Shown piece after piece: positions 7,758 to 36,368 of a stretch of 64,000 nucleotides of DNA. The position numbers and the translations under genes were made by a program. This DNA is from Synechococcus sp. CBW1002 (lineage in GTDB: Bacteria > Cyanobacteriota > Cyanobacteriia > PCC-6307 > Cyanobiaceae). The notes beneath the pieces were generated by a model that was not told the origin of the DNA, ran no database searches, and saw only the letters and a list, made by a program, of their open reading frames with translations. Where the stretch lies: assembly GCF_015840915.1 (NCBI RefSeq), contig NZ_CP060398.1, positions 1,550,001 through 1,614,000 on the forward strand, read 5' to 3'. Within the stretch, counting starts at the first letter, position 1; each line of letters begins with the position of its first letter.

Positions 7758-7763
7758 CATGTA

Positions 7764-17919: not shown

Positions 17920-18018
17920 GGTGTGGTCAGTCAGCCGAGATCCCTGTTGGCCGTTGGTGTTTCTTAGGAAGAAGTCCGCTCGGTTTGACCCGTCCACCTG
18001 GGGGCCCAACCGACGACT

Positions 18019-18528
18019 ATGCAACCGCCCTATGACGCCGCTCTGCGGGAAGCCGTCCGCCTGCGGATGAGCCCTCCGAACCTTGAGAGCGTGGCTGAGA
18101 TCGCCCGCGACACCGGGATCACGGCGCAGACCATCTACAACTGGCGGAGCCAGTGGCAGAAGCAGGGCCAGCTGGTGCCTGCCACGAACCGGCCGCCGGA
18201 GCAGTGGAGCGCTGCCGACAAGCTGGCAGCCGTGATCCAGGCCGCAGGACTGAACGGAAGCGAGCTCGGGTCGTTCTGCAGGGAGCGGGGGCTGTACCCC
18301 AAGCAGGTTGCCCGTTGGCGCCAGGCCGCCGAGGATGCCAATGGCCCCAGCGCGCCGAGCATGGCTGATCAGCGGGAACTGCAACGCAAGAATCAGGAAC
18401 TGGTCCGGCGGAATCGCCAGCTGGAGCGTGAATTGCAGAAGAAAGAAAAAGCACTGACAGAAGCGGCGACGTTGTTGATGCTCTCAAAAAAGTTCAACCA
18501 GATCTTTCAACCGGACGAGGATCCTTGA
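18019..18528 (+). CDS. IS3-type element OrfA
   Basis: This 169-residue HTH protein has the same sequence as that at 997-1506. It has two helix-turn-helix segments (about 20-50 and 70-110) and a C-terminal coiled coil for partner contact. The stop codon overlaps the TTG start of OrfB (TTGA), so translation is probably coupled. The second gene is intact in this copy, so this is the possible source of transposase for both copies. Confidence 0.85.
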   Translation: MQPPYDAALREAVRLRMSPPNLESVAEIARDTGITAQTIYNWRSQWQKQGQLVPATNRPPEQWSAADKLAAVIQAAGLNGSELGSFCRERGLYPKQVARWRQAAEDANGPSAPSMADQRELQRKNQELVRRNRQLERELQKKEKALTEAATLLMLSKKFNQIFQPDEDP

Positions 18529-19583
18529 TTCCGTCTGGCGATCGCGGTGCGATCGTCGCGCTTCTACAGGAAGGCATCAGTCGTGGCCTTTCGGCCAAGG
18601 CCATTGCTGATCTTTTCGGCCTGGCGACACGCACGCTGAGGCGATGGGGCTTGATGATTCGGACCCAGGGATTCAGCTGCGATCAACGCAAGGGAGCGTC
18701 CAGGCATGTCATGCATCGTTTCAGCGAGGAGGAGCGCCAACAGGTGTTGTCCACTGTCAACGATCCACGCTTTGCCGATCTCACGCCTGGTCAGATCGTG
18801 GCGATCCTTGCCGAGGAGGGAGTCTACGTGGGATCGGAGTCAACGATTTACCGCATCATGCGCCAGGAAGGCCTGTTAAATCATCGCGGCAGGAGCCGCC
18901 CACCGCGGGAGCCAAGAGAGCCACCCGTGCTGGAGGCAACGGGCATCCATCAAGTGCTGGCCTGGGATATCACCCTGTTGCCGGGGCCTGCGAAGGGTCA
19001 GTTCTACTACCTTTATATGGTGATGGATGTGTGGAGCCGGCGCATCCTTGGCGTTGAGGTGCACGATCGTGAATGCGGCGAACTGGCCAAGCACTTCTTT
19101 GATCGTGTCTGCCGTGATGAAGGGATCAGCTCGGGGTCGACCACGATCCTGCACGCCGATAACGGAGCACCCATGCGCTCCTACACCTTGGCCGCCAAGC
19201 TGGCCGAGCTCGGCATCTCCCTGTCATTCTCGCGGCCGCGGGTGAGCAATGACAACGCCTACGTTGAGTCATGGTTCCGAACCATGAAATATCACCAGAG
19301 CTATCCAGTGCGTCGTTTCCGGGATCTTCTCTCAGTGCGTGCCTGGGTCGATGGTTTTGTTGACTGGTACAACGCTGAGCATCGTCACAGCGGCATCAAG
19401 TATGTGACGCCCAATCAACGTCACTACGGAGAAGCTGACGCGATCTGCAGAGTCCGTCAGCAGACCTATGAGCAGGCGCGTGCGCAACATCCACGCCGCT
19501 GGGCCAGGCCACCTCGCGATTGGGCTCAGCCAACAGTCGTGCGGGTCAACCATCCCAGACCGCAGGACACTGTCGCTGCTTGA
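18525..19583 (+). CDS. IS3-type element OrfB transposase
   Basis: This 352-residue protein has an N-terminal HTH (ISRGLSAKAIADLFGLATRT, about 15-35), then an rve/DDE domain. HQVLAWDITLLPG gives the first Asp (about 150), TTILHADNGAPMRS the second (about 212) and SNDNAYVESWFRTMKYH the Glu (about 248). The C-terminal stretch FVDWYNAEHRHSGIKYVTP is the conserved IS3/IS481-type ending. The TTG start overlaps the OrfA stop. The missing outer left terminal repeat may immobilise this copy, yet the enzyme could still act on intact ends elsewhere. The exact family (IS3 subgroup) is not certain. Confidence 0.88.
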   Translation: MIPSGDRGAIVALLQEGISRGLSAKAIADLFGLATRTLRRWGLMIRTQGFSCDQRKGASRHVMHRFSEEERQQVLSTVNDPRFADLTPGQIVAILAEEGVYVGSESTIYRIMRQEGLLNHRGRSRPPREPREPPVLEATGIHQVLAWDITLLPGPAKGQFYYLYMVMDVWSRRILGVEVHDRECGELAKHFFDRVCRDEGISSGSTTILHADNGAPMRSYTLAAKLAELGISLSFSRPRVSNDNAYVESWFRTMKYHQSYPVRRFRDLLSVRAWVDGFVDWYNAEHRHSGIKYVTPNQRHYGEADAICRVRQQTYEQARAQHPRRWARPPRDWAQPTVVRVNHPRPQDTVAA

Positions 19584-19806
19584 AGATCAGAAACCCAGGC
19601 CCCAGGGGGTTGTGGTTGGACCGCCCGCAAGAGGCGGGCCGGCCTCAGCCTCCGACCGGGGGCCGGCCGCTCAAGCCTGCGCTCCTGATCAACGCGCGAT
19701 GACGATCAACATCCGATCTCGAAGCCCATGATCCTCCATCCGGAGTAGGCTTTCTGAGGTACTCAGATCAGTACCCTGAGCGGACATCTTTGCTGATAGG
19801 CGCCGG

Positions 19807-20790
19807 GTGAGCGGATCACTTCAGCTGGGGTTCAGCGATTACGAGCAGGTCTACGCCAAGAAGAAGACGCGGCGGCAGATCTTCCTCGACGAGATGGAAG
19901 CGACGATCCCCTGGAATAACTTCCATGCACTGATCCGTCCGGTTTACCACCAGCCATCTGCCAAGGGAGGCAGGCCGCCGTTTCCGTTGGAGGTGATGCT
20001 GCGCATTCACTTGCTGCAGCAGTGGTTCACGCTGTCGGATCCGTTGATGGAGGAGATGCTGATCGACACCCCCTGTTTCAGGCGCTTTGTGGGGATCGAC
20101 ATGGTCTCTGAGCGGATTCCAGATGAGACCACGATTCTGAATTTTCGTCATCTGCTCGAGGAGCACGGAATCGGCGAGCAGATTTTCGAGGCGGTCAAGC
20201 AGGCGCTCAAGGATCAAGGCGCCCTGCTGCAGGAGGGGACGATCCTCGATGCCACGATCATCCACGCCCCCAGTTCCACCAAGAACAAGAAGTGTGAACG
20301 GGACCCGGAGATGCACTCGGTGGCCAAGGGGAACCAGTGGTTTTTCGGCATGCGTTGCCATATCGGAGTGGATGCGGCCTCAGGCTTGGTCCACTCCGTG
20401 GTCAGCACCGCCGCCAATGTGCATGAACTGAACACCGCCACCGAGCGGCTGCACGGCGAGGAGAAGATGGTCTACGGAGATTCAGGCCATCTCGGCATTG
20501 AGAAGCGCGAGGAATTCGCAGACAGTCCGTGCCAGTTCCGGATCGCCATGAGGCCAGGCCAGCGCCGTGCGCTACCCGATACGGCGGAGGGAAGGCTGGA
20601 GGATTTGTTTGAGACGGCCAAAGCTCACCTGCGAGCCAAGGTGGAACATCCCTTTCGGGTGATCAAACGACAATTCGGCTTCCAGAAGACGCGCTACCGA
20701 GGCATCAAGAAGAACGATCACAAGCTCAAGATGCTGTTCGCCCTGGCCAACCTCTACAAGATCAGGCAACGAAGACCAGCAACAGCATGA
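19807..20790 (+). CDS. IS5 family transposase, 5' end possibly altered
   Basis: This 327-residue protein begins at a GTG directly after the IS3-type element. KKKTRRQIFLDEMEATIPW and GGRPPFPLEVMLRIHLLQQW are the IS5 N-terminal and DUF772 signatures. TILDATIIHAPSSTKNK gives the first catalytic Asp, KMVYGDSGHLGIEKR the second, and VEHPFRVIKRQFGFQKTRYRG the Glu with the C-terminal motif. The protein looks almost complete, but its left terminal repeat and promoter region have been removed or displaced by the IS3-type element, whose end lies one or two bases upstream. Expression would need read-through from that element. Confidence 0.88.
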   Translation: MSGSLQLGFSDYEQVYAKKKTRRQIFLDEMEATIPWNNFHALIRPVYHQPSAKGGRPPFPLEVMLRIHLLQQWFTLSDPLMEEMLIDTPCFRRFVGIDMVSERIPDETTILNFRHLLEEHGIGEQIFEAVKQALKDQGALLQEGTILDATIIHAPSSTKNKKCERDPEMHSVAKGNQWFFGMRCHIGVDAASGLVHSVVSTAANVHELNTATERLHGEEKMVYGDSGHLGIEKREEFADSPCQFRIAMRPGQRRALPDTAEGRLEDLFETAKAHLRAKVEHPFRVIKRQFGFQKTRYRGIKKNDHKLKMLFALANLYKIRQRRPATA

Positions 20791-21070
20791 GTGCAGAGGC
20801 TCAGTGTGCCTAAAAGCCAGAAATCCTGAACAGAAGACGATGATTCAGGCCGCATGAAGCGATCTAAAGCGCCAGCGATGCAGAATCATCACGTGTAGAG
20901 GTCTCATAGACGAGACTGAGACCACTGAACTGAGGAGCGGGGCTTGATCAGAGTTTCCCTAGAGCAATGACCGCTCGAGCCCATCTAGTCGCCGGCGTCG
21001 TTCACTCATCGAGCGCAAGGCGCTGGACCGGACGCGCTGCTGCGGGCCAGGGCCTCCGCCAGGGTGGTGT
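20791..21070. other. IS5 downstream region and boundary to host sequence
   Basis: These 280 bases include the trailing part of the IS5 element and the return to host DNA; I could not place its right end because the left end is missing for comparison. GGTCTCA and TGAGACC (about 20900-20925) form a small inverted repeat. No gene is evident. Confidence 0.4.
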
Positions 21071-21295
21071 CTACTGCTGCTGGATTCTGTAGCGGGTGCT
21101 TGGGTCGGCGGGGTTCTGGATTTGAACGTCACAGCTGATGGTCCCGTCGTCTGCGGTCTTGCAGTTGGTTGGCTTCAGCTCGGTATTAGGTCCGATGAAC
21201 GGCTGATTGCCCTTCCTGCGGAAGTAGACCTGCCCGTCCTGAGCGAAGGCAGGAGCAGCGAACAGTACGATCGTAAGCAGCTGAATCAGGCGCAT
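21071..21295 (-). CDS. Small exported protein
   Basis: This 74-residue protein has a clear signal peptide (MRLIQLLTIVLFAAPAFA, then QDGQVYF), so the mature form would be about 55 residues in the periplasm. It contains two Cys (TNCKTADDGTISCDV), which could form a disulfide. The composition and codon use look like host genes. I do not recognise a family. It has no evident operon partner, being isolated between the IS5 remnant and a possible small gene on the other strand. Confidence 0.6.
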   Translation of the reverse strand: MRLIQLLTIVLFAAPAFAQDGQVYFRRKGNQPFIGPNTELKPTNCKTADDGTISCDVQIQNPADPSTRYRIQQQ

Positions 21296-21407
21296 CGACC
21301 TTTTGAGAGTGCAGCGACCCTAGGCGAAATCACCTCAACCCCCTATAGAGATAGGTGCGGGCGTCACCCCATTGGCTACATCAAAGGCGCTGGCAAGGTC
21401 GCGCGTC

Positions 21408-21710
21408 ATGAAGCGGGCGTCGTTGCCCATGTGGACCTCAAGGCTGCGGCCCCGCGGCGCCTCAGGCGGTGACTTTGCGCGGATCGAGCTCACCGGTGCC
21501 AGCGCCAGCGAGATGGAGGCCAACCAGTCCTTGGTGACTCGGCTCGGTGGTGATGCCAAGGCTTGGTTGAGTGCCGTGGATTCGGCTCTTGATCGCCAGC
21601 AAGTGCCTCTGGCCTGGGCGCTGCTCTTTGCTCCACAGGATCCGCGCTCCAACGACCTTGATGCTCTGCGACGGGAAGTGCTGCAGCGGGGGTGCGGGGA
21701 TGGCCAATAG
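21408..21710 (+). CDS. Hypothetical protein
   Basis: This is a possible 100-residue protein starting MKRASLPMWTSRLRPRG. The second half (DAKAWLSAVDSALDRQQVPLAWALLFAPQD is represented by AWLSAVDSALDRQQVPLAWA) looks like a real helical protein, whereas the first 30 residues are basic and less convincing. An opposite-strand frame (21335-21763) is longer but more compositionally biased. No family recognised. It lies 130 bases before an IS1182 element end, so it could be a truncated gene. Confidence 0.4.
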   Translation: MKRASLPMWTSRLRPRGASGGDFARIELTGASASEMEANQSLVTRLGGDAKAWLSAVDSALDRQQVPLAWALLFAPQDPRSNDLDALRREVLQRGCGDGQ

Positions 21711-22408
21711 GGAGAAATCAAAAACCCCCGAGCAGTGCCCGAGGGTCCTGAACCAATCAACATTCCAATGGCTGTAGATGGTCGAAGCTGCTGGCGTTGG
21801 CGCCTGGGGCCGAACGTTCCAGGTGTGGGCCGTTTTGATCTCTTAGGAGTTTGCAGAAAAACCGTCTGACGAGGCGCGTTTTTCCTTCCGGAGAACTGAT
21901 CACACGCCGGAAGGGCCCGGGTTCAGCAAATCAGCGGATCAGAACGCACGATGTTTTGCGTTTTGCTCTGTTGGGTCTGTCTGATCCCTGCCGCCTGGTC
22001 ACACTTCGGGGCAACGACCTTTTCATGGTCATGCCGCTGCCATCGCTGGCTTGAGCAGGTTGCCCAGCCGGATCAGGTTGTAGGCGATCACATGCAGGCC
22101 AAACACCGCATTGACGTTCTCAGTGCCGCGCACTTTGAATTGGCGCAGCCCGCCCCACTGCTTGATCCAACCAAACACCTTCTCGATGCCGCGGCGGGCG
22201 TTGATCGACTTGGCGTAGCCCTTGTGGCGAGTGGTGCGGACATCGATCGCAGAACCACCAGGCCGAGCTGTGTTCTGCGCCACGTGCGGTGTCACGCCAC
22301 GCCGCCGCATCTGGGCGACAAAGCCCCGGGTGATGCTCGTATAGATCGTCAACCCCCCTGGCGCAGCTTTTCGCCAATGCCGTGACGGAGAGGCGGCCGG
22401 CTCTTCAT

Positions 22409-22457
22409 CCGCCAACCAGCCCGCCCGCAATGGAGGAGCGGGCGGGCTGGTTGGCGG
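22409..22457. repeat. Perfect 20-bp inverted repeat downstream of IS110 transposase
   Basis: The arms 22409-22428 and 22438-22457 are perfectly complementary and separated by 9 bases. The arms are G+C rich (CCGCCAACCAGCCCGCCCGC on the plus strand). The repeat lies 28 bases after the transposase stop. No T run follows on the minus strand, so it is either a non-canonical terminator or a structural end of the element. Confidence 0.9.
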
Positions 22458-22484
22458 GAGCCTGGGCTGTTGCCCCCTGGGGGC

Positions 22485-23567
22485 TCATGCCTTCTTCAAC
22501 CGCACGGCTGGACCACCCATGAGGATTCGAAACACCTCGCGGGCAATGAACCGCTTGAGGCAGCGGAGGATCTCCGCTTTCGAGAGCCCCTCCTCTGTTC
22601 GACGCTCGGCATAGGCCTGGGTCTGCTCGTCCCATCGCAGCCGCACCACCGCGATCCGGTGCAGTGCCGCATTGGCCTGACGGTTGCCGCCCCGATTCAG
22701 GCGATGTCGGTGGGTCTTACCAGAGCTTGCTGGTAGGGGATTAACGCCGCAGAGCGCTGCAAAACTGGCGTCGCTGCGCAGGCGCTCCGGGTTATCCCCA
22801 GTCGCGGTGAGCAGAGTGGCGGCGTTGTCGACTCCCACGCCAAAGGTCTGGCGCAGAGCGGGACAAACAGCCTGGGTGAGCTGATCAAGGTCGTCCCGCA
22901 ACCCTGCGATTTCCACTTCCAGGGCCAGAACCCGGCGAGCCAGGGTTCGCAGTGCCCGTTTGGCGGCGGCCAGCGGAGCATCCAGCGGGCCTGGCCTCAG
23001 GGCCGAGCAGGCCCGGATCAGGGCGCTGCGGTGCAGAGGCTCCAGCCGCTCGCGCAGGGCCGCCGGAGCGGTCACCAGAATCGCTTTGATCTGGTTGATC
23101 GCCCGGGTGCGGCTGCCGGTGGCCGAATCCTTGGCGCACTTGAGCATCCGGATCATTTCCACCCTTTCGCCGCCTGCCTTGGGTGTCACCGTGGCCGTGC
23201 CGGCGATCCACGCTCGGGCAGCGGCCTCGGCATCGATGGCGTCATTCTTGCCGAGGCGGCGCCTGGTGGAGCGATCGGGGCGGTTCACCTCGACGACCTC
23301 GTAGCCAGCATCGACAAGCTCACGGCACAGCCCGGCTCCGAAAGAACCGGTGCCCTCGACGGCAAAGACCGGCGTGTAGCCGAATTGCTCAGTCCAGGTC
23401 ATCAGCTCGTCATAGCCCCTTCGGGTTGTGGGAATCCGGAAGTCGCCGAGCCTGCCGCCGTTGGGAGCCAGGGCCACAGCCACATGGATGTCCTTGTGGG
23501 TGTCGACGCCGATCACAACATCAGGCGCCCGCTGATGAACGGACTGTGTCAGGGTTGCTGATGCCAT
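22485..23567 (-). CDS. IS110 family transposase (second type)
   Basis: This 360-residue recombinase has the DEDD domain with VVIGVDTHKDIHVAVALAP (first Asp at about 21), FAVEGTGSFGAGLCRELV (Glu at about 70) and RRRLGKNDAIDAEAAARAW (Asp residues at about 109-113). The Transposase_20 region has GVGVDNAATLLTATGDNPER and LCGVNPLPASSGKTHRHRLN with the catalytic serine pair (PASSGKT), then RGGNRQANAALHRIAVVRL. Its length is normal for the family. The ATG at 23567 follows 216 bases of non-coding element DNA. All key residues are present. Confidence 0.93.
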   Translation of the reverse strand: MASATLTQSVHQRAPDVVIGVDTHKDIHVAVALAPNGGRLGDFRIPTTRRGYDELMTWTEQFGYTPVFAVEGTGSFGAGLCRELVDAGYEVVEVNRPDRSTRRRLGKNDAIDAEAAARAWIAGTATVTPKAGGERVEMIRMLKCAKDSATGSRTRAINQIKAILVTAPAALRERLEPLHRSALIRACSALRPGPLDAPLAAAKRALRTLARRVLALEVEIAGLRDDLDQLTQAVCPALRQTFGVGVDNAATLLTATGDNPERLRSDASFAALCGVNPLPASSGKTHRHRLNRGGNRQANAALHRIAVVRLRWDEQTQAYAERRTEEGLSKAEILRCLKRFIAREVFRILMGGPAVRLKKA

Positions 23568-23783
23568 CGATGCCAGATGGTGGTGGGGAGAAGCGATCAG
23601 CGGGGAGGTCGGACAGGACTGTGATGGGGCCTCTTGACCAGGCTCGTATCAGGTCACGACACTTCTCCGTTGATCGGCCCCATCAATGCAGATCGACAGA
23701 TCACGCAGAAAGGCACTGAGCTGGCCAGGCCGGTCGTAGTTCGAGTCAGATCTGCTGATGATGGGGTTGCCAGGATCATCACA
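23568..23783 (-). ncRNA. Candidate bridge RNA region of the second IS110 element
   Basis: This is the non-coding 5' end of the element. On the minus strand it contains GAACTACGAC (23742-23733), identical to the 10 bases of host sequence immediately left of the insertion (23793-23784). This is the position and orientation expected for a left target guide of an IS110 bridge RNA. I could not find a matching right target guide, and no transcript boundaries can be read. Confidence 0.4.
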
Positions 23784-24797
23784 GTCGTAGTTCTTGTCGG
23801 CGCCGACGGTCTTCTGGTGGGCACCGGTGAGGTCTGCTGCCATCTCTTTGGCGGCATCCCGCTCACCGGTGCCCGTGGCCTGGGTGACGCGGCAATCGAC
23901 GATCAGGTCGTGGCGGTTGTCCATGAGGACATGGCCCCGATAGCTCAGCTGCGCTGGATGGGCATTCGATTTCCGGGCCAGCCGTGCCTCAGGATCGGTG
24001 CTGGAGCGGTGGGTCTCGTTGCTGAGCTTGATGCCGCGAAAGTCCCCTTTGGCGCGCTTCTTTCCCTCTTTGGGAGCACCGAATCCTTCGCCAGGACCTG
24101 TGGGCGGAGGCGGAGGATCCTCCTGGCCATCGATCCGCTCCAAGGAAGCGTGTGACGCCCAGGCCTGGAGCAACGTGCCGTCCACCGAAAAGTGCTCGTC
24201 ACTGAGCAGCGGTTTGACCTCGGGTGCTCCCATCAGCTTCTCCAGGAACAGCCCCATGACGTCGTCAGTGAGGAGCCGATCACGATTCTTGGTGAATGTG
24301 GTCGGATGCCAGATCGCATCGTCAGGGCTCAAGCCCACAAACCAGCGGAACAGCAGGTTGTAGTGGACCTGCTCCAGCAGCAGCCTCTCGGAGCGGATGC
24401 CGTAGAACGCCTGCAACAACGAGGCCAGCAGCAGCTGCTCTGGCGGCACCGATGGTCTCCCTTCTGAGGCATACAACCTGCAGAAGGTGGGATTGAGTCG
24501 ATCGAGGGCCTGATCCGCCAGCTTGCGAATCCGCCTGAGTGGATGGCTGGTCGGGATCCGCTCCTCGATCGAGACGTAGGAGAACAAGGAGCCGCTGCGC
24601 TCCTGCTGACCTCGCATCAAACCTGGGGCAGTTGCCCTATTTTCGCAGAGGCGGCGGGGTTTTTCAGTAAACTCCTAACACCCGACGGGAATCGCTGGGA
24701 TTTTCTATGGGGTCATCCTGCTACCGCTGAGGACGCATCGTGGGTGCCGATCGAGGTCTGCATCGGGCTGTCACAAAAACGCGTCTGCGCCGTGGCT

Positions 24798-25978: not shown

Positions 25979-27331
25979 TCAGACCGGTGTGGCGTCGCGC
26001 ACACTTTCGAACAGGTCGATGTCCCAGGCCACCAGATCGCGGCGGATCGCATCGGCGCGGGGGCGGGGCAACCGCTCGGCCAGGTCTTCGCCGGTGATCA
26101 CACCGCGGAGCTCGCCGCCGTCTTCCCGCAGGAAGGCCAGGGCATGCCAGGTGAGGATCGCGGCCCCCACGGCGGTGGGATAGGAGATGTAGGTGGCACC
26201 GGCATAGGGGCTGTTGAGTAAACCGCGGTAGCGGAGATAGCTCACCCCAACAGTTTCGATCGTGCTCTGGCGATCGTTGCGCACATTTTCGGTGTAGCGG
26301 ATTTCGGCGGAAGCGGCGAAGTGGGCCCGGCGAATCACCCCCTCGCGCAGATAATCCTCGATCCGCCGCGGTTTGTTCATGCCCGGCAGGATGGCGCGCA
26401 CCATCGCTTCCACGGTGAGTTCGCTCTGCTGCGGCAGGGTGCGTTTCGACAGCAGATTCAGCTTGAACAGGGCCTTGACCAGCTCCACTTCCGACCCACC
26501 GGTGTAGATGCCGATCGAGTCGATCTCGGGGAAGGAGCGATGCAGCGACAGCAGTTCCTCCTGATAGAGCGGGTACTGCCGGGTGGCTGTCACCTCATGG
26601 GGAAAGCTGTGCTCGCGCGCGGCGCTGAACGGCTCCAGCACCTGCAGGCGCCCATCCCGCAGCAGGCGAGGCCGCGCCGCCAGTTCCTCCAGGGCCACCA
26701 GCGGCGACCAGGAGAAGACGATCTCGTCGGCGTCGATGTCTTCGAGCAGATAGAGATCCACGCTCTCGATCCGCAGATCCCGGCGCCGGGCGGAGCGCAG
26801 CTCGTGCAGACGCAGACCGACCAGGAAATTGGTCACCCCCGGCGAGATGCCCAGATTGATCAGGGCGGCCCGGTTGGCGGCGCGGAAGGCGTGATCCAGC
26901 CCGTATTGCGCAAAGGTGAGGCTGCGCTCGGTCTCGGCGTCGTACATGTCCGAGGCCAGATCCACGGTGTGGGCGCCCAGCCGCAGGCCCAGCTCCAGCA
27001 TCGGCAGGTTGAAGATCGGGTTGGCGGCATTGACCAGCAGGTCGATGCCGGCGAAGCGGGCGGCGTGATCGCCTGCCAGGGCAAAGACCGGCGCGAAATC
27101 GCTCACCTCCAGGAAGTCGATCCGATCGAACAGGCGCTCGGCGTGGAACAGCGCATCGCGGGCCAGCTCCGTGTTCAGCACCACCACCAGGAACTCCAGC
27201 TCCACGCCATCCCGCTCGGCCAGCTCCGCCAGGCAGATCAGCAGGGAGGAGCCCACCGCCCCCAGCCCGAAGAAGGCGATCCGCAGGGTGGGGGCGGCAG
27301 GGGTGCTGGTGCCGGAGGGGAGGCTGGTCAT
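25979..27331 (-). CDS. Saccharopine dehydrogenase-like oxidoreductase
   Basis: This 450-residue protein has an N-terminal Rossmann fold (LRIAFFGLGAVGSSLLICLA, about 16-35) that binds NAD(P). Its overall layout resembles saccharopine dehydrogenase/homospermidine synthase-like proteins, with INLGISPGVTNFLVGLR in the middle and a long C-terminal substrate domain. The ATG at 27331 overlaps the TGA of the upstream gene as ATGA, indicating translational coupling, so I prefer it to the ATG five codons earlier. The substrate is unknown. The coupling with an exported solute-binding-like protein is not something I can explain from known pathways. Confidence 0.75.
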   Translation of the reverse strand: MTSLPSGTSTPAAPTLRIAFFGLGAVGSSLLICLAELAERDGVELEFLVVVLNTELARDALFHAERLFDRIDFLEVSDFAPVFALAGDHAARFAGIDLLVNAANPIFNLPMLELGLRLGAHTVDLASDMYDAETERSLTFAQYGLDHAFRAANRAALINLGISPGVTNFLVGLRLHELRSARRRDLRIESVDLYLLEDIDADEIVFSWSPLVALEELAARPRLLRDGRLQVLEPFSAAREHSFPHEVTATRQYPLYQEELLSLHRSFPEIDSIGIYTGGSEVELVKALFKLNLLSKRTLPQQSELTVEAMVRAILPGMNKPRRIEDYLREGVIRRAHFAASAEIRYTENVRNDRQSTIETVGVSYLRYRGLLNSPYAGATYISYPTAVGAAILTWHALAFLREDGGELRGVITGEDLAERLPRPRADAIRRDLVAWDIDLFESVRDATPV

Positions 27332-28341
27332 GGAACGCTCTGCCACTGGCGCAGCAGGTCTTCGAGGGCTCCGGGGGAGGGGGGCGGCAGGCGGCGCACC
27401 CGATCGCCGGCGGGGCTGCCGCCCTGACCGGCCGCATCCCGGAAGCCATGGCGGTTCAGCACGGCACGACCCTCGGCGCCCAGAAGAAACGCCACGAAGC
27501 GGCTGCCGTCGGCTTCCCGCCCCTGGCCTTCGCCCCGGCGCACGCCTGCGGCCAGCACCGTCTCCATGGTGGGATCGGGAAACAGCATCCGGTAGCCCCC
27601 CGGCCAGCGCCCCTCGGCTTCGCCCTGGCGCTGCAGGGCCGGGGCCTCGTACACAAAGGCGAGATCCCCCTGGTTGGGTCCGCCACTGACGAACTCGCTC
27701 AGCAGGATGTCGGTGGAGCGCGCCGGCCGGTAGATGGCCCGCTTCAGCAGCGCCACCGCCTCGCTGCCCGGTTGGTCGCGGGCCCAGAGCGCCAGGGTGA
27801 GCTGGCCCGAGTTGGAGCGGAGCGGATCGGTCATGCGCAGATCGATGCTGCCCCAGGCGGGCGGACCGCCGATCGCCTGCCAGCGACCGGCCCGCGCGGC
27901 AGCCCGCAGCCGCTCCCAGGAGAACCGGCCATCGGGGAACAGCCGCTTGGCCCGTTCCGGCCAGGCCACCGCCACCAGCAGCGTGCGGGCGATCGGCTGC
28001 GGGCTGCCGCGGAAGGCCGGTCCTTCGCCCCGGGCCTGCACCGCCCCGGCGTAGCTCTCGAGCTGGTCGCGGTTCGAGGGGATCAGCACCCGCGGGCGCT
28101 CCGGGCCGCCATCGATGCTGGCGTTGATCATGTCCTGGGCACCCAGCACCCGCCAGCGCAGGTCGATGTCGCCATGGCGCGTCTCGAACAGCGGTTCGAT
28201 CTGCCGCAGCGAGGCCTCCAGCTCCGATCCCACCACCACCAGCAAGGGACGCCGCAGACCCGGTACCGGGGCGGCAGCCAGCAGCACCGCCACAGCGCCG
28301 ATGCCCAGGGAGAGGAAGCGGCGTCGGCTCAGACGACTCAC
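27328..28341 (-). CDS. Tat-exported extracellular solute-binding-like protein
   Basis: This 337-residue protein starts at a GTG (28341) giving VSRLSRRRFLSLGIGAVAVL. SRRRFLS is a twin-arginine signal, followed by a hydrophobic stretch and a probable cleavage near VPG. The mature part looks like a type 2 periplasmic binding fold (LLVVVGSELEASLRQIEPLF; TDPLRSNSGQLTLALWARD; GDLAFVYEAPAL). The TDPxRSNSG pattern recurs in the VWA lipoprotein encoded divergently (PTRSNSGLQTLVAMF), suggesting related ligand domains. The stop overlaps the start of the downstream dehydrogenase-like gene. A frame on this strand continues far upstream but overlaps the divergent gene and is not coding. Confidence 0.72.
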   Translation of the reverse strand: MSRLSRRRFLSLGIGAVAVLLAAAPVPGLRRPLLVVVGSELEASLRQIEPLFETRHGDIDLRWRVLGAQDMINASIDGGPERPRVLIPSNRDQLESYAGAVQARGEGPAFRGSPQPIARTLLVAVAWPERAKRLFPDGRFSWERLRAAARAGRWQAIGGPPAWGSIDLRMTDPLRSNSGQLTLALWARDQPGSEAVALLKRAIYRPARSTDILLSEFVSGGPNQGDLAFVYEAPALQRQGEAEGRWPGGYRMLFPDPTMETVLAAGVRRGEGQGREADGSRFVAFLLGAEGRAVLNRHGFRDAAGQGGSPAGDRVRRLPPPSPGALEDLLRQWQSVP

Positions 28342-28416
28342 CGGCTGATCCGGAGATGCCCGGTCAGTCTGCAGCAGAATTCCGCAGCAGAATGGGGGGC
28401 AACGGGCCGGGATTCG

Positions 28417-30171
28417 ATGCGCTTCTCCAGCCTGGTGCCCTGCGGTGTGGTCCGCCGCCGCCCCTACTGCCACCGCCACCGCCACCGCCACCGCCACCGC
28501 CACCGTTGTACCGCCGCCGCTCTGCTGCTGCTGGCTCCCCTGGCGGGCTGCGGCAGCGGGCCGGGGCAGGAGATCGCCATCCCGATGCTGGTGGGCAGCG
28601 CCCTGGGCGGCTTCTGCGAGCAGGCCGCCGCCGCCATCGCCCGCCAGCCGCCCCGGCTCGACGACGGCACCCGGGTGCAGTTGCGCTGCCGCGCCGCCGG
28701 CAGCGGTGATGTGGTGAGCGAGATCGAGCGCCACGCCCGGGCCGTGCTGCAGGGCGGTGCTCCGGCCGATGACCCGTCGATCCCGGTGCTGCTCTCGGTG
28801 GATGGCGAGATCTACCAGGAGCTGCTGCGCTACCGGCTGCAGCAGCTGGCCCCCAGCCGCGATCTGATTCCGGCTCCGGCCGATGCCCCGGCCCTGGCCA
28901 GCAGTCCGATGGTGTTCATGACCACCCCGGCCCTGGCGAAGGGACTGCAGCGCTCCGATCCCTACCAGGCCCTGGCCCGCAGCACCGACCACCGCCAGCT
29001 GGATCCGGCGGGGCCGTCGCAGCTGATCCGCTTCGTGCACACGGCGCCGACCCGCTCCAATTCCGGCCTGCAGACCCTGGTGGCGATGTTCGCGGAGGTG
29101 GCCGGCAAGCCCCCTGAAGCACTCACCCTGGCGGACGTGAGCCGCCATGCCGCCGGTGTGGCGGCGATCCAGCGGCACATCACCCGCTACGGCAGCTCCA
29201 CCGATGAACTGGCCCGGGCGATGCAGCGCAACGGCCCCTTCTGGGCGTCGGTGGCCTCGGTCTATGAGTCGTCGGTGGTGGGGGTGAACAGCCGACGCAG
29301 CGGCAGCGAGGAGGTGCTGCAGGCCGTGTACCCGGCCGCCACCTACGCCAGCACCATGCGGGCGATCCTGCCGAACGCGCCCTGGGTGTCGCCCCAGGAG
29401 AAGGCGGCGGCAGAGCTGCTGATCGAGCGGCTCCAGAGCCCGGAGATCCAGAAGCTGGCGGCGGATCAGGGGTTGCGTCCCGCCAATCCGGCCGTGCCGG
29501 CCTCCCGGGTGGTGGCGGCCTATGGCGCCGATCCGCGGGCGGTCTACGACTCCCTGCGGGCGCCGCGCCCGGCGGTGGTGGAGGCGATGATCCGCACCTG
29601 GCGGGATCTGGTCAAGAAACCCTCGCGGGTGGCCCTGGTGGTGGACAGCTCCGGCTCGATGAGCGGCGAGAAACTGCCCTCCGCCCAGCGCAGCCTGCAG
29701 GCCTACCTGGCCGCCATCGGCCCGCGCGACACCGTGGGTCTGTTCGACTTCGACAATCGCCTGCCGGAGCCGGTGGTGATCCGTGGCGGTCCGGCTGATG
29801 CCGCCAAGGGCCAGGCCTTTGTGGCCGGGCTGGTGGCCGATGGCGGCACCCGCCTGCACGATGCCGTGTCCGGTGCCCGCGACTGGCTGCGCCGCAGCCA
29901 CAAGCCCGGCGAGATCCTGGCGGTGGTGGTGCTCACCGATGGGCGTGACCAGGGCTCGCGCCTCGGCCTCGACGCCCTCAAGGCCGAGCTGAAGCGCAGC
30001 GGTTTCGGCGGCGACGAGCGCATCGGTGTGTTCACGATCGGCTACGGCAACCCCGGTGATTTCGACGCTGACGTGCTGCGCCAGATCGCTGAGAGCAACG
30101 GCGGCGAGTTCACCCAGGGCAATCCCGAGAGCATCCTGCGCCGGATGGAGGATCTGCAGATGGCCTTCTGA
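28417..30171 (+). CDS. Lipoprotein with solute-binding region and von Willebrand A domain
   Basis: This 584-residue protein has an unusual N terminus: MRFSSLVPCGVVRRRPYC, six His-Arg pairs, then the hydrophobic CTAAALLLLAPLAGC lipobox, so Cys is lipidated and the protein anchored outside the inner membrane. Residues about 50-385 resemble a type 2 solute-binding fold (PTRSNSGLQTLVAMFAEVAG; YESSVVGVN). The C-terminal third is a VWA domain with the MIDAS sequence VVDSSGSMSG (about 411-420), a Thr-containing loop (VADGGTRLHDAVSG) and VVVLTDGRDQG. It probably binds a partner or ligand through a metal ion. The next gene follows 14 bases later, so the two are likely co-transcribed. Confidence 0.82.
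   Translation: MRFSSLVPCGVVRRRPYCHRHRHRHRHRHRCTAAALLLLAPLAGCGSGPGQEIAIPMLVGSALGGFCEQAAAAIARQPPRLDDGTRVQLRCRAAGSGDVVSEIERHARAVLQGGAPADDPSIPVLLSVDGEIYQELLRYRLQQLAPSRDLIPAPADAPALASSPMVFMTTPALAKGLQRSDPYQALARSTDHRQLDPAGPSQLIRFVHTAPTRSNSGLQTLVAMFAEVAGKPPEALTLADVSRHAAGVAAIQRHITRYGSSTDELARAMQRNGPFWASVASVYESSVVGVNSRRSGSEEVLQAVYPAATYASTMRAILPNAPWVSPQEKAAAELLIERLQSPEIQKLAADQGLRPANPAVPASRVVAAYGADPRAVYDSLRAPRPAVVEAMIRTWRDLVKKPSRVALVVDSSGSMSGEKLPSAQRSLQAYLAAIGPRDTVGLFDFDNRLPEPVVIRGGPADAAKGQAFVAGLVADGGTRLHDAVSGARDWLRRSHKPGEILAVVVLTDGRDQGSRLGLDALKAELKRSGFGGDERIGVFTIGYGNPGDFDADVLRQIAESNGGEFTQGNPESILRRMEDLQMAF
28471..28505 (+). repeat. Hexanucleotide CACCGC tandem repeat within a coding region
   Basis: Five perfect CACCGC units plus five bases of a sixth lie in the signal-peptide region of the VWA lipoprotein and encode His-Arg pairs. 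Copy-number change would keep the frame and alter only the length of the basic region before the lipobox. Confidence 0.95.
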
Positions 30172-30185
30172 GCCTGGATGCCCCC

Positions 30186-30935
30186 GTGACCCGCTCTGCC
30201 CTTCTGCCCAATCCCCTCGACGATCCCGCGGCCGTGGCCATCGCCTCAGTGGCACTGGTGCTGCTGGTGCGGCTCGGTCTGCTGCCCCTGGCACCGGCCC
30301 TGGCGGTGGCGGCGCTGTTCGGCTGGGGCCTGGCCACCCTGCGGCATCGGCGGCGCCATCGCGGCAGCCGCCTGCTGGATGCCCGCCTGCGGCTGCGGAT
30401 CGATGCAGCGCTGGCGCGCTGCCGGGAGCTGGCGGGGCAGGCGGCGCTGGTGGGTGGCGAGGCGATGGCGCGCTTTCAGGATGCGGCTCACCTGGAGGCC
30501 CTGGGCCTGGTCCAGCTCTGCTGCGAGCGGCTGCAGAGCCTGCCGGAGCGGATCGAGCAGCGCCGTCCCCTGCTCGAATCCGGTGGCGGCGTGCTGCTCA
30601 GCGCCGAAGACCTGCAGCGGCGCCTCAGGCAGGAGGAGACAGCCCTGCGCCGCGAGGAGGCCGGCCCCCTGCGGCTGGAGCGCCAACGGCTGGTGGAGCA
30701 GTTGCGCCGCAACCTGGAGGCGGCCGAACAGGGGATGGACGAGCGCGAAGCCCGGTTGGTCGCCCTCTCCACCCGCCTTGAGCAGATCGATGGCGGCCTG
30801 CGGCATCTGCGCCGCCAGGTGGATCGCCAATGGCCCTCCAGCCAGGCCACCGATGCGGCGATGGCCGAGGCCCTCAGGCCCCTCGATGCAGCCCTCGATC
30901 AGATCGAACGCCTGCTCGACGAAGGCTCCCGCTGA
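30186..30935 (+). CDS. Membrane-anchored coiled-coil protein
   Basis: This 249-residue protein has one or two hydrophobic segments at about 18-48 (AIASVALVLLVRLGLLPLAP and on to ALFGWGLATL), then a basic boundary and a long charged helical region (about 60-249) with heptad-like coiled-coil character. It starts 14 bases after the VWA lipoprotein gene, so the pair probably form an operon and could act together at the inner membrane. I do not recognise a family. The composition fits the host. Confidence 0.65.
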   Translation: MTRSALLPNPLDDPAAVAIASVALVLLVRLGLLPLAPALAVAALFGWGLATLRHRRRHRGSRLLDARLRLRIDAALARCRELAGQAALVGGEAMARFQDAAHLEALGLVQLCCERLQSLPERIEQRRPLLESGGGVLLSAEDLQRRLRQEETALRREEAGPLRLERQRLVEQLRRNLEAAEQGMDEREARLVALSTRLEQIDGGLRHLRRQVDRQWPSSQATDAAMAEALRPLDAALDQIERLLDEGSR

Positions 30936-31556: not shown

Positions 31557-34500
31557 CTAGGCCGACGGCCCAGTGGCTGACTCCAGCCAGCCCAGCAGTT
31601 CCGGCAGGGGCATGGGTCTGGCGATCGCGAAGCCCTGCAGGTAATCCGCCCCCAGCTCCTGGCAGAAGGTGGCCATGCTTGTGTCACTGATGCCTTCCAC
31701 CACCACGGCGGCCCCGAGGCCATGGGCCATTTCGATGGCGGATCGCATCAATTGCCTGCCGCGATCATCCTCGAGGCTGAGCAGCAGCAGGGAGCGATCC
31801 AGCTTGATGAAGGCGGGCTCCAGTGTCTTCAGCAGCCTGAGGTTGGAATAGCCGGTGCCGTAGTCGTCGATCGAAATGGCGGCGCCGTGATCGATCAGGC
31901 CATGCACCACCTTCAGGGCCGCGCTGTTGTCGGGCAGCAGGATGGATTCCACCACTTCCACCACAAGGCCCTGGAGGCCGTGGACCGCGGGCCAGCTCTG
32001 CAGCAGGGAGGCGAGCTGGGGATCTTCCAGCTGCTTCACCGACATGTTCAGGCTCACCGACAGATCGCTGCGGCCGGTGGCGCTGAGGCGCTCCAGATCG
32101 GCCCGCAGCAGGCGCAGGGTGAGGGGCCCGAGCTCGCGGATCAGACCGCTCTGCTCGGCGAACGCGATGAAGTCGTCCGCATGCACCACCTGCCCGTCGC
32201 GGTGCCAGCGAATCAGCGCTTCCACCCCCCAGAGCGTTCCCTCTTTGGCCGCCACGATCGGCTGGAAATACAGCTCAAACGACTCTGCGGCGATTGCCTC
32301 CGCCAGCGCGCGCCGCAGCAGGCGCCGCTGCTCGGCGGCGGCATTCATTGAATCGGTGAAGTATTGAAAGGTGTTGCCGCCCTGGCTCTTGATTCCATAC
32401 ATCGCCGCATCGGCGGCACGCAGAAAGTCGTCCACCGTGGTGGCGTCTTTGCCGTAGATCGCCACCCCCACACTGGTGCCCACCTTGAGTTCCACATCCG
32501 CCGCCTGAATCGGATGCCTCAATTCCAGCATCAGCCGTTCCAGGATGGCATCGAGTTCGTGATGGTCGCTGTAGCCGGCGATGATCACGCCAAATTCATC
32601 GCCGCCCAGCCGGCCCACGTAATCCCTGCCGCCGCGGATTTCTTTCTGCAGGCGCTTGCCGATCGCGCACAGCACCTCATCGCCAGCGGCATGGCCGTAT
32701 TGGTCGTTGATGTCCTTGAAGTGATCCAGATCCACCCAGGCCAGGGCCAGGGGCAGAGTCTCCCGGGAGGCCCTGGCGATCTCGCGATCGAGGGCCTCCG
32801 AGAAGCTGAGTCGGTTGAGCAGTCCGGTCGCGCCATCAAAGCGGGCCATCTGCTCCAGCTGCAGGGTCGATTCCCGCAGGCTGGTCACATCCTGCAGGAT
32901 CACCAGAACCACGGCCTTGGCGATCGGTCGCGGCAGCCGCCGCACCTCGGCCGTCACCCAGGGGGTGTGGCCATCCTTGCCCTTGAGTTGCAGGGTCCGG
33001 GTGGCGGCACGGTCGTTGCCACTGAGCACGTCTGCTGCGGCGGAGACGATCTCCTGCTCGAACCCCGCCGCGGCGATCAGGCCGATCGGAATGCCCTGGA
33101 TCAAGGTGGAATCCAGGTTCACCAGATTGCAGAGTGCCTCGTTGCCCATCACCACCCGATACTGGTCATCGAGGATGGCCACACCGAAGGCCTGGGTCTG
33201 GAACACCGCTTCGAAGATCGCGGACATGTCATGGGCCCGTTCTTCGGTGGCGTGCTGTTCGCTGATGTCGGCCAGGGTGCCCACCACGAAGGTGTCGCTG
33301 ATCACCTTGGCCGTCTCCAGCACCCAGATGGGCTGGCCATCGCGACGGATCAGCTGATAGCGAACGTTCCACGCATCGGCCGCTTGCCTGGCCTGGTTGA
33401 CGCGGTCGCGGTCGGCTGGATCGATCGCCTCATCCAGCTGTTCAGGGTGGTCGAGGAGTTCCGCCATGCTCCAGCCGCTGAGGCTCTGCATGCGCTGGCT
33501 GACATAGACAATCTCCTTCATATTGCGGGCTCTCTTCCACACCGCCTCCTGCAGGGCATCGGCGAGCTGGGTGAAGTCCTGCAGCGCTGATTCGGCGTTC
33601 TGGCGCAGACTCACCAGCTCCGTGACATCGGTGAGCGTCACGATGGCGCCATGGCGGCCGCCGCGGTGGTCCTGATAGGGGAGGATCTGGGCCAGGTAGG
33701 CGATGCCGTCGCCTCGGGCCTCAATCGCCTCCCTGACGCCTCCCCGGATCACCCGCTCCAGGGCCTCCCGCAGGTTCGGCAGGGGCACCGTCGTGGGAAC
33801 GCCAGGCAGCATCTGGCCGATATCGCTGTCTACCAGGGCGAACACCCGCACCGCCAGCGGGGTGAAGCGGGTGACGCGCAGATTCTCGTCCACGATCACC
33901 ATCCCCTGGCTCAATGACGCCTGGATGTTCTCCATGTCGCCGTTCAGCGCCTGCAGTTCCTCGGTGCGGGATCGCAGCTGCTGGTTGAGGATCCCCAGGG
34001 CCTCATTGGTGGCCTGCAGTTCCTCGTTGGAGGCCTCCAGCTCCTCATTGGAGGATTGCAGCTCCTCCGACGACGCCTGCAGCTCCTCGGAGGAGGCCTC
34101 CAGCTCCTCGTTGGCGCTTTCCAGTTCGGACAGGGAGCGGCGCAGCGAGTCCTGGCTGCTGAGCAGCTCCTTCTCCAGCCGCTCCACCTCCTGATCGAAG
34201 CTGGTATCCCGTTCGATCAGGCGGCTCGGCAGCGGAGCCGTGGTGCTGGCGGTGTTGCTGTCGCTGGGATTGACCGCGATGAAGCTCAGAATCGTGAGGT
34301 TGCGATCACCCGCCGTCAGGGGCCGGGCTTCAAGGCGCACCTTGCCCTCCAGTCCCTCCAGCTGCAGCGGCTGGCCCATCACCGGCATGCCGTCGGCGCG
34401 GACGATCAGGAACAGGGCCCGCGCTTCGGCCTGCAGCTCCGGCCTCAGGTAGGAGCTGGCGGCGGAGGTGACCTGGCCCTCTGGCAGACGGCAGTAGGGG

Positions 34501-36368
34501 GTCACGTTCCCCTGCACCTCCACCAGGTCGTGGTGTTCGTCGAGGATGAGGCAGGGGTGGCACAGCTGGCGGATCAGGGCCTCCAGCAGGGTGACGTGCT
34601 GCTCCGGCACGTTCTCGCGCATGATCGCGACCCGGTTGCCCGCCGCCCCGCTGAACGCCGTCAATACCCGAGGCTGGGCTCTGCTGGCTAACGGCGGCAG
34701 CAGCCGCGTCGGGCTTTCTCCTTCCAGGGTGCGGACATAGAGGTGCTGTTCAGCGCTGGCCACCCCAAATCCCGGCGTGCGGCTGCTGAGCGATTCGGAG
34801 CCCCCCAGAAACAGCAGGCCGTCGGGCAGCAGGCCGTAGCGAAACAGGCTCAGCACCCGATCCCGCAGGGGGGTCGTGAAATAGATCAGCGTGTTGCGGC
34901 AGGAGATCAGGTCCAGCCGCGGGAAGGGCGGATCTTCCCCCACGTTGTGACGGGCGAACACGGCGCATTCGCGCAGCGTTTCGCTCAGCCCCATCTCGCC
35001 GTTGGCGAGGGTCACGAACCGCTGGCAGAGGTCCTCCGGGATCGCCTTGGCGGCCGAGACCGGATAGGTGGCCCGGCGGGCGATCGAGAGGCTCGCCTCG
35101 TCGAGATCCGTACCGAAGATCTTCAGATGGCGTGACAGATCGGCGGGATGATCCAGCACCTGGCTCACCACCATGGCGATGGAATACACCTCTTCCCCGG
35201 TGGCGCAGCCCGGCACCCAGACGCGCAGTGGATAGTTGTCCACCTGCTTGGCGAGGTACTGCCGCAGCTGACGGCCGAGCTCGGTGAAGGCGGCGGGGTC
35301 CCGGAAAAACGCCGTCACCGTGACCAGGAGGTTTTCCGCCAGGGCGTGCGCCTCAACAGGATCGGAGCCCAGCAGAGGGAGGTAATCCTCGATCGAGCTC
35401 ACCTGCCGGATCGCCATGCGCCGCCGGACCTGCCGGCGCAGGGTCGATTCCTTGTAGAGGGAGAAGTCGATGCCGATGGCGTGCTTCAGCTGCCGGCTGA
35501 TGGTGGAGAGCATCACAGGCTCCGGCTCCGGCAGGGCGCGGCCGATCCAGTCGGCGCCGCTGCTCACCAGGGCGGCGAGGCGCTGGCCGATCTCGGTGGC
35601 GCTGAGCACCAGCTCGGCGCCACCGAGGGAGATGGCGGCCCGCGGCATGCCGTCGAAGCGGGCGTTGTCCAGGGTCTGCACCAGGGTGAGCCCGCCGGCG
35701 GCCCGCACCGCCCGCAGCCCGCGGGCGCCATCGGAGCCGGTGCCGGAGAGCACCACCCCCACGGCCCGCTCCCCCCAGTGCTCGGCCAGGGATTCGAAGA
35801 GCAGGTCCACGCTGGGGCTGGGACCGAAGCGCGGCAGCGGCTCGGTGACAACCAACCGATTCTTCTCCACCGCCACGTCGTGGTTCGGGGGGCAGATGGC
35901 CATCGTTCCGGCCTGCAGCGGCATGCCGTCCACGGCCGCGACCACCTTGAGGCTGGTGGTATGAGACACCAGATCCACCAGCAGGCTGCGGTGGTCGGGG
36001 GCGAGGTGCTGGGCCACCACGTAGCTCACGCCCCCGCCCACCAGCAGGTGTCTCACCAGCTCCTGCAGCGCTTCGAGGCCGCCGGCGGAGGCGCCCAGGC
36101 CCACCACATAGGCAATCTCGTCGTCGGCTGGCGCGGGTTGGGGCTCTGTGGCGTCGGTGGCGCCTGGGGATCCAGCTGCTTCTGGCGGGTCAGCGGTCTC
36201 TGAAGCGCCAGGTGTGGGCGACGAGCCCGGCCGATCAGGTGGGTTGGCTGGCTGTTGGGACGCGGTTGGCTCGGCTGGCTGCTCGGGCGAGGTTGGATCG
36301 GCTGGCTGCTCGGACGAAGTTGGGTGCTCCTTGGGTTCAGATCTCTGCTTTGATCCCAACGACTGCAT
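31557..36368 (-). CDS. CheB-CheR-PAS-GGDEF-EAL hybrid signalling protein
   Basis: This 1603-residue protein combines several modules. Residues 1-84 are a Pro/Glu-rich disordered region. A CheB methylesterase domain (about 85-280) has GLGASAGG with the Ser at about 94, QHLAPDH and GTGSDGARG. A CheR methyltransferase (about 285-545) has FFRDP and the SAM loop GCATGEEVYS near 389. Then come a PAS-like part, a coiled coil of EELEASSEEL type repeats (about 726-812) and two or three PAS domains to about 1190. A GGDEF domain has LGGDEFG near 1256, and an EAL domain (EAL near 1383) keeps the Asn, DDYGTGYS, Lys, Glu and QGF residues. Both c-di-GMP synthesis and hydrolysis look possible. Confidence 0.93.
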   Translation of the reverse strand: MQSLGSKQRSEPKEHPTSSEQPADPTSPEQPAEPTASQQPANPPDRPGSSPTPGASETADPPEAAGSPGATDATEPQPAPADDEIAYVVGLGASAGGLEALQELVRHLLVGGGVSYVVAQHLAPDHRSLLVDLVSHTTSLKVVAAVDGMPLQAGTMAICPPNHDVAVEKNRLVVTEPLPRFGPSPSVDLLFESLAEHWGERAVGVVLSGTGSDGARGLRAVRAAGGLTLVQTLDNARFDGMPRAAISLGGAELVLSATEIGQRLAALVSSGADWIGRALPEPEPVMLSTISRQLKHAIGIDFSLYKESTLRRQVRRRMAIRQVSSIEDYLPLLGSDPVEAHALAENLLVTVTAFFRDPAAFTELGRQLRQYLAKQVDNYPLRVWVPGCATGEEVYSIAMVVSQVLDHPADLSRHLKIFGTDLDEASLSIARRATYPVSAAKAIPEDLCQRFVTLANGEMGLSETLRECAVFARHNVGEDPPFPRLDLISCRNTLIYFTTPLRDRVLSLFRYGLLPDGLLFLGGSESLSSRTPGFGVASAEQHLYVRTLEGESPTRLLPPLASRAQPRVLTAFSGAAGNRVAIMRENVPEQHVTLLEALIRQLCHPCLILDEHHDLVEVQGNVTPYCRLPEGQVTSAASSYLRPELQAEARALFLIVRADGMPVMGQPLQLEGLEGKVRLEARPLTAGDRNLTILSFIAVNPSDSNTASTTAPLPSRLIERDTSFDQEVERLEKELLSSQDSLRRSLSELESANEELEASSEELQASSEELQSSNEELEASNEELQATNEALGILNQQLRSRTEELQALNGDMENIQASLSQGMVIVDENLRVTRFTPLAVRVFALVDSDIGQMLPGVPTTVPLPNLREALERVIRGGVREAIEARGDGIAYLAQILPYQDHRGGRHGAIVTLTDVTELVSLRQNAESALQDFTQLADALQEAVWKRARNMKEIVYVSQRMQSLSGWSMAELLDHPEQLDEAIDPADRDRVNQARQAADAWNVRYQLIRRDGQPIWVLETAKVISDTFVVGTLADISEQHATEERAHDMSAIFEAVFQTQAFGVAILDDQYRVVMGNEALCNLVNLDSTLIQGIPIGLIAAAGFEQEIVSAAADVLSGNDRAATRTLQLKGKDGHTPWVTAEVRRLPRPIAKAVVLVILQDVTSLRESTLQLEQMARFDGATGLLNRLSFSEALDREIARASRETLPLALAWVDLDHFKDINDQYGHAAGDEVLCAIGKRLQKEIRGGRDYVGRLGGDEFGVIIAGYSDHHELDAILERLMLELRHPIQAADVELKVGTSVGVAIYGKDATTVDDFLRAADAAMYGIKSQGGNTFQYFTDSMNAAAEQRRLLRRALAEAIAAESFELYFQPIVAAKEGTLWGVEALIRWHRDGQVVHADDFIAFAEQSGLIRELGPLTLRLLRADLERLSATGRSDLSVSLNMSVKQLEDPQLASLLQSWPAVHGLQGLVVEVVESILLPDNSAALKVVHGLIDHGAAISIDDYGTGYSNLRLLKTLEPAFIKLDRSLLLLSLEDDRGRQLMRSAIEMAHGLGAAVVVEGISDTSMATFCQELGADYLQGFAIARPMPLPELLGWLESATGPSA

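Follow-up and report, generated by a model that had tools for sequence, protein, structure and literature searches.

A conserved three-gene unit of solute-binding, VWA and coiled-coil proteins in Synechococcus sp. CBW1002: a putative envelope module built on transporter-type binding folds

What purpose is served by two related binding proteins of transporter type, one of them fused to a VWA domain, that are encoded next to each other with no evident transporter nearby? This question is raised by a locus situated in a window of 64,000 nucleotides (positions 1,550,001 to 1,614,000 of contig NZ_CP060398.1; coordinates are those of the window unless another locus or genome is named) from the 3.85-Mb, single-contig genome of Synechococcus sp. 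CBW1002. The locus comprises the gene of a type II solute-binding protein (SBP) of 337 residues, P0001 (27328-28341, minus strand), the gene of a lipoprotein of 584 residues combining an SBP domain with a VWA domain, P0002 (28417-30171, plus strand), designated VWA-SBP hereafter, and the gene of a membrane coiled-coil protein of 249 residues, P0003 (30186-30935, plus strand). The original prediction interpreted this arrangement as a module for envelope sensing or assembly in which binding folds of the transporter type are put to a different use; the four open reading frames (ORFs) on which it rested, the fourth one encoding a dehydrogenase, are all present at the same coordinates. As developed below, the three envelope genes almost certainly make up one functional unit, this unit is quite probably not a transporter, and the explanation that best accounts for the data, in which we place middling confidence, is a three-gene, non-transport envelope complex sensing for the sake of membrane maintenance, its internal interactions, ligand and mechanism all being putative.

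Both binding proteins are readily assigned to a known fold. P0001 matches PF13531 (E 8e-14) and its predicted model (mean pLDDT 80.0) superimposes on the sulfate-binding protein 1sbp with a VIA-align Z of 26.6 (root-mean-square deviation (rmsd) 2.5, 272 residues aligned). In P0002, which matches PF13416 (1e-11), PF13531 (2e-9) and PF13519 (1.5e-10), a lipobox LAGC45 is followed by a type II SBP domain (about residues 50-400) and a VWA domain (about residues 401-583); in its predicted model (mean pLDDT 86.7), the SBP part resembles 5um2 (VIA-align Z 27.3, rmsd 3.5, 293 aligned) and the VWA part the VWA protein 4fx5 (Z 22.1, rmsd 2.2, 172 aligned). The relatedness of the exported pair and the VWA part in one of its members, both announced by the original prediction, are thereby borne out, but the two genes do not face each other, being arranged back to back and separated by 75 bp (28342-28416), where a simple scan detected no sigma-70-like match. 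BLASTP aligns P0001 with the SBP part of P0002 around RSNSG (E 1e-4), and the profile-profile comparison of the SBP parts reaches 98.8% over 347 columns, taking in a C-terminal Trp-containing stretch which, in P0002, leads into the VWA domain. Because the SBP parts are homologous, the shared TDPxRSNSG/PTRSNSG-type pattern noticed earlier, a PxRSNSG loop in these two paralogs, is more than a chance resemblance, and P0002 looks like a P0001-type protein to which a VWA domain has been added.

Residues D172-P173, R175-S176 and S178-G179 are invariant across the 12 SBPs of the P0001-family alignment A2, from which the split SBPs (L037, L042) and those located beyond the fetched regions (G074, G080, G087, G105) are absent. 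Similarly, Cys45, S214-N215-S216-G217, D410, S412, S414, T478 and D508 are invariant among 17 aligned P0002 orthologs (alignment A1, without L009, which has an in-frame stop, and without the L051 paralog), the last five being residues that we take to be the positions of a metal ion-dependent adhesion site (MIDAS). The PxRSNSG pattern occurs in 42 of 43 cyanobacterial VWA-SBPs and in none of 56 others, a lipobox-like pattern in 37 of 43 and 25 of 56, and DxSGS in 42 of 43 and all 56, respectively. Judging from the fold, the conserved SBP loops may bind a ligand. A GCCACC six-base repeat (6.2 copies, 28469-28505), encoding an (HR)n run ahead of the lipoprotein signal segment of P0002, was not seen in the same-genus ortholog.

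With respect to topology, the N-terminal hydrophobic segment of P0001 (residues 9-27) is followed by APVPG, and because a proline occupies the would-be +1 site the segment is read as an uncleaved anchor; P0001 is thus probably membrane-anchored with its binding domain in the periplasm, and a PxP pattern follows the segment in 27 of 36 orthologs. Export through the twin-arginine translocation (Tat) pathway, as originally proposed, fares less well: the SRRRFL motif is there, but TIGR01409 scores 12.8 bits against a cut-off of 16.7, and with an RR-type pattern in 13 of 36 cyanobacterial orthologs the Tat signal is not a family trait, although P0001 may be exported in this way in this species. P0003, which belongs to no Pfam family, consists of a hydrophobic N-terminal stretch of about 40 residues, likely a hairpin of two transmembrane segments, a basic stretch, and a coiled coil. 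In the one-contig genome G084, the coiled-coil protein and the SBP are fused in a single ORF of 602 residues (L041 7540-9348, minus strand), whose hydropathy profile displays two segments at the N-terminus before the coil and a third one just before the SBP. If the SBP of this fusion is periplasmic, the coil would therefore be cytoplasmic, in agreement with the basic stretch that follows the hydrophobic part of P0003. Another fusion, a single case, links an N-terminal M48 peptidase domain (E 2e-32) to the SBP in Lyngbya aestuarii BL J (L084 9982-12015, plus strand), where a separate coiled-coil gene is present beside it.

An argument for a functional unit comes from co-inheritance. Separate searches with the three proteins gave strong matches in the same 18 of 119 related genomes, including one (G080) in which the VWA-SBP has an in-frame TGA and two in which the SBP is distributed over two ORFs, which overlap in different frames in one case (G054; L037 about 10024-11060) and have a short gap between them in the other (G078; L042 11281-12430), the split being possibly due to decay or sequencing error, or possibly real. 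Two identical sets of 18 out of 119 would be drawn at random with a p of about 1e-21, or 1.5e-17 when counted by genus (15 of 92), the true significance being smaller owing to shared ancestry. The SBP gene is divergent in all five module-bearing genomes of the own family, and among the 13 other genomes nine have the VWA-SBP, coiled-coil and SBP genes in a same-strand row (fused in one of them), two carry the first two genes on a short contig and the SBP on a separate one, and the remaining two (G087, G105) keep all three genes at three distant places. A scan of genome contigs, restricted to the best 80 of 236 relatives, yielded 27 named cyanobacterial loci: the same-strand, operon-like order VWA-SBP, coiled coil, SBP in 21, a divergent SBP in two (Vulcanococcus limneticus and a metagenome-assembled genome labelled Cyanobium), no coiled coil in one, no SBP within reach in another, and the VWA-SBP alone in two, one of them truncated where the stored stretch ends. 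There is some overlap between the named and the unnamed sets, L079 being seemingly the same contig as L038 (14153 bases, identical gene coordinates). The flanking genes vary from locus to locus. The neighbourhood within the module is conserved among cyanobacteria, and the loss of synteny that would have spoken against the original prediction did not appear. SBP remnants with stop codons in G098 (C164:11572-11937) and G114, together with short VWA-SBP fragments in G114 and G118 (C12:25741-25929), suggest that the unit is lost as a whole; the apparently decayed stretch of G114 lies at C412 about 7267-7875.

Relatives of the VWA-SBP also occur outside the cyanobacteria, with 26-34% identity, at 44 loci from the same scan (L103-L145, L155), mostly Chloroflexota by title. 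In many of them the VWA-SBP gene has an SBP gene immediately ahead of it and a gene for a membrane coiled-coil protein behind it, the latter following directly in 25 of the 40 non-cyanobacterial loci with room for it. Profile-profile comparison matches the SBPs of cyanobacteria and Chloroflexota at 99.4% over 354 columns, the coiled-coil proteins of cyanobacteria and Chloroflexia at 92.4% over 206 columns, and those of Chloroflexia and Anaerolineae at 98.0% over 240 columns, a PspA profile used as a coiled-coil control reaching at most 1.2%; the alignment behind the coiled-coil profile was truncated at column 263, so that the SBP portion of the fusion protein is absent from it. The direct comparison of cyanobacterial with Anaerolineae coiled coils gave no significant match (41.8%, later 32.5%), and the bridge through Chloroflexia gained its strength with 13 sequences, after 37.3% and 63.4% with four. 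All three parts are probably of common origin across both phyla, the coiled coil being the least certain of them. The Chloroflexota cluster is often followed by a type I binding lipoprotein (Peripla_BP_6 in L122 and L172) and preceded, in some cases, by a response-regulator/histidine-kinase protein or by an ATPase with a Trans_reg_C domain. Such an AAA/nSTAND-like ATPase with Trans_reg_C stands upstream of the PspA-containing cluster at L128 (2327-3745) and L170 (7522-8880, minus strand). Five Chloroflexota loci (L181, L182, L183, L173, L185) have the SBP beside a coiled-coil gene, no VWA-SBP being detected in the fetched stretch, and represent a possible minimal form of the module.

A possible clue to the function is provided by the PspA/IM30 protein associated with part of these clusters. 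Of the 44 non-cyanobacterial loci, 14 have a PspA-like gene ahead of the SBP and in its orientation, each of these 14 being Chloroflexota by title; the proportion is 14 of 33 among the loci that have both more than 1.5 kb of upstream sequence and an A5 hit, which may be the VWA-SBP itself where a separate SBP is missing. The two genes overlap by 3 bp at one extreme and are 1351 bp apart at the other, and in 13 of the 14 cases the PspA-like gene lies within 283 bp of the SBP. Four proteins went into the PspA profile, and three of these belong to the counted loci (L115, L122, L134), unlike PF04012, which offers an independent check and matched 16 of 18 such PspA-like proteins (E up to 1e-5), three of the 18 stemming from a later draw. 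In the L122 genome, the copy of the cluster (E 4e-18) looks dedicated to the module because it is distinct from the second PspA match (E 4e-52). The later draw covered 201 genomes of the same phylum, 19 of which, including the L122 genome at its centre, had a match; the three new close matches (E under 1e-100) all possess the PspA-like gene, SBP, VWA-SBP, coiled coil and LIVBP. PF04012 is matched firmly in one of the three, weakly in G217 (E 1.9e-5, which falls below the cut-off), and not at all with E up to 0.01 in G225. The link to PspA is good for one branch of the Chloroflexota and, on the genomic evidence at hand, unproven in cyanobacteria.

Among known systems, those of the phage shock protein (PSP) response are the closest frame, and all the domains are known except the coiled coil. 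In a survey of these systems (PMC11237479, Ravi et al. 2024), PspA is described beside many partners, including an operon that combines a solute-binding PBPB-OmpA protein and an ABC (ATP-binding cassette) transporter with PspA, and such systems are proposed to connect the perception of stress outside the cell with the dynamics of the membrane; a term search of its text yielded neither VWA nor von Willebrand. The Chloroflexota clusters resemble PSP systems by their PspA/IM30 protein, membrane proteins and binding lipoproteins, but the module differs by having a VWA fusion and a coiled coil in place of an ABC ATPase or permease, and the Synechococcus locus is devoid of PspA. Another likeness is found in 6lkg, a structure titled 'two-component system protein mediate signal transduction', which matches the folds of P0001 (Z 23.6) and P0002 (Z 23.5) and also represents a binding protein engaged in signalling; the cyanobacterial unit differs in being without a sensor kinase. 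We take 6lkg to be the staphylococcal HptA. No account of a module made of an SBP, an SBP-VWA and a coiled-coil protein was found in the literature, subscription journals lying mostly outside the coverage.

The folds themselves call for a comparison with transport. P0001 and the first part of P0002 share the fold of the type II SBPs of ABC transporters (Sbp, ModA, FbpA, thiamin-binding protein), the full folds being closest to sulfate-, ferric-, thiamin- and molybdate-binding proteins, and the binding-loop positions are conserved in both protein alignments. Orphan SBPs that hand over an oxyanion, a metal or a small metabolite to a permease encoded elsewhere, P0003 being an accessory, would fit these features, but this explanation appears unlikely. 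As originally stated, no ABC ATPase or permease was seen among the ORFs within about 5 kb of the module (translations read, Pfam applied to six), and an ABC ATPase motif pair turned up at just one of the 27 named cyanobacterial loci, about 4 kb off and on the opposite strand, permeases not having been profile-searched there. In the own genome, the SBP family is confined to the module, its profile matching only the two module genes (E up to 10), and a dedicated ABC transporter using the same family elsewhere, which the original prediction had named as its refutation, was not found there; a third PF13531 match adjoins an ORF read as an iron-transporter permease. Besides the lack of a cognate permease or ATPase among the genes found, the module is set apart from transporter SBPs by its VWA fusion and by its coiled-coil partner, fused to the SBP in G084, features which are ill-suited to a simple shuttle.

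A role in assembly or adhesion, fairly unlikely in our opinion, would have the VWA lipoprotein and the SBP-like domains bind an envelope polymer, a pilus or a matrix component, with the membrane protein as their anchor and no signal sent inwards. VWA domains commonly mediate protein-protein contacts, the closest VWA structures are those of ITIH, CMG2 and a Catenulispora VWA protein, and the three-gene cyanobacterial unit comprises neither kinase nor regulator, all of which agrees with such a role, whereas an inward direction is suggested by the conserved, probably cytoplasmic coil and by the PspA gene that some of the Chloroflexota clusters contain. Highly improbable is a tellurite or toxic-anion system of the TelA/XpaC type with a VWA partner: the layout, presumably that of a membrane coiled-coil protein beside VWA proteins, served as a lead only, neither TelA (PF05816) nor XpaC (PF10112) exceeded its curated cut-off in any of the 119 related genomes, where weak matches below the cut-off occurred in two genomes each, and the 16 scanned members of the P0003 family match neither. 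A known anti-phage defence system was likewise discarded, PADLOC models being matched by none of six proteins (E up to 0.01).

A non-transport envelope unit is favoured because no ABC partner was found, because of the probable anchoring, the VWA domain and the coiled-coil fusion, and because co-inheritance outlasts the scattering of the genes and PspA belongs to part of the Chloroflexota clusters. The repurposing of binding folds proposed by the original prediction thus gains support from the conserved neighbourhood, the identical phyletic sets, the fusion and the PspA adjacency; what falls away is the membership of the dehydrogenase and the Tat signal as a family trait, and either sensing or assembly may be the purpose. 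According to the sensing model, the three proteins would form one envelope complex, in which P0001 would be held in the membrane by its uncleaved N-terminal helix with a periplasmic binding domain, P0002 would bring in, as a lipoprotein, a paralogous binding domain and a metal-dependent (MIDAS) VWA domain, and P0003 would form a membrane hairpin with a cytoplasmic coiled coil. The paired SBP domains may read a ligand or the state of the envelope, the VWA domain may bridge them or bind a further partner, and the signal would reach the cytoplasmic coil, which would recruit or position a membrane-maintenance machinery. In Chloroflexota of the Anaerolineae type, this machinery would be the PspA-like protein (ESCRT-III family) of the same cluster; in cyanobacteria, which are thought to rely on VIPP1 for membrane upkeep, it might be VIPP1/PspA encoded elsewhere, or another factor. 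Confidence in a membrane-maintenance role falls slightly short of even. Its boldest version is doubtful: in Cyanobacteria and Chloroflexota alike, the module would be a transmembrane switch that responds to a ligand and governs bacterial ESCRT-III, a VWA-joined pair of periplasmic SBPs reporting the state of the envelope or of a solute through the membrane hairpin to a coiled coil controlling membrane remodelling by PspA/VIPP1. Little is known of the route that envelope signals take to PspA/VIPP1 beyond the proteobacteria. The three-gene unit, which is compact, inherited or discarded in its entirety and neighboured by PspA in some members of a second phylum, is a candidate for this connection, in which transporter-type binding folds would probably serve a purpose other than uptake.

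Several observations weigh against this sensing model or its components. PspA is missing upstream at 19 of the 33 Chloroflexota-type loci with room, it was seen in none of 13 regions (12 genomes; G187, G195 and G244 left out) around the more distant Chloroflexota matches, and five of 19 genomes searched have no PspA match at all, these being drafts in which absence means little. In cyanobacteria, PspA/IM30 adjoins the module at one of 46 loci, a set that includes the L038/L079 pair, the decayed L050 and short contigs; the exception (L043 507-1169, plus strand, in G074) has the PspA/IM30 gene upstream of the VWA-SBP (E 4e-56). PspA copy number is similar with and without the module, showing no trend by eye, and PspA as an adjacent partner in cyanobacteria was rejected on these two counts; the own genome has a single PspA match, at G000:C1:2115048, outside the window. 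As to the proteins, the second MIDAS pattern hTD[GS], found in all 43 cyanobacterial VWA-SBPs, occurs in 33 of the 56 others; AxA without a following proline in 19 of 36 P0001 orthologs tells against anchoring; and the hydropathy scan, which gives at least two, often overlapping, segments in 28 of 40 P0003 orthologs, gives one in P0003 itself. Finally, remote ABC transporters can be served by orphan SBPs.

The surroundings of the module in the window deserve a brief description. As originally reported, the VWA-SBP gene precedes the membrane coiled-coil gene, and the stop codon of P0001 overlaps the start of a gene encoding a saccharopine/carboxyspermidine-dehydrogenase-like enzyme (25979-27331, minus strand; both Pfam matches below cut-off) in an ATGA at 27328-27331. 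The enzyme was rejected as a member of the module: together with a neighbouring desaturase, it recurs in one of 19 other loci compared, some of them short or non-orthologous, namely that of the same-genus genome G001. A cluster of transposase-like ORFs, named by eye from their translations, adjoins the module at 16576-24620, and on its other side a protein of 1603 residues (31557-36368, minus strand) combines CheB, CheR, several PAS, GGDEF and EAL domains.

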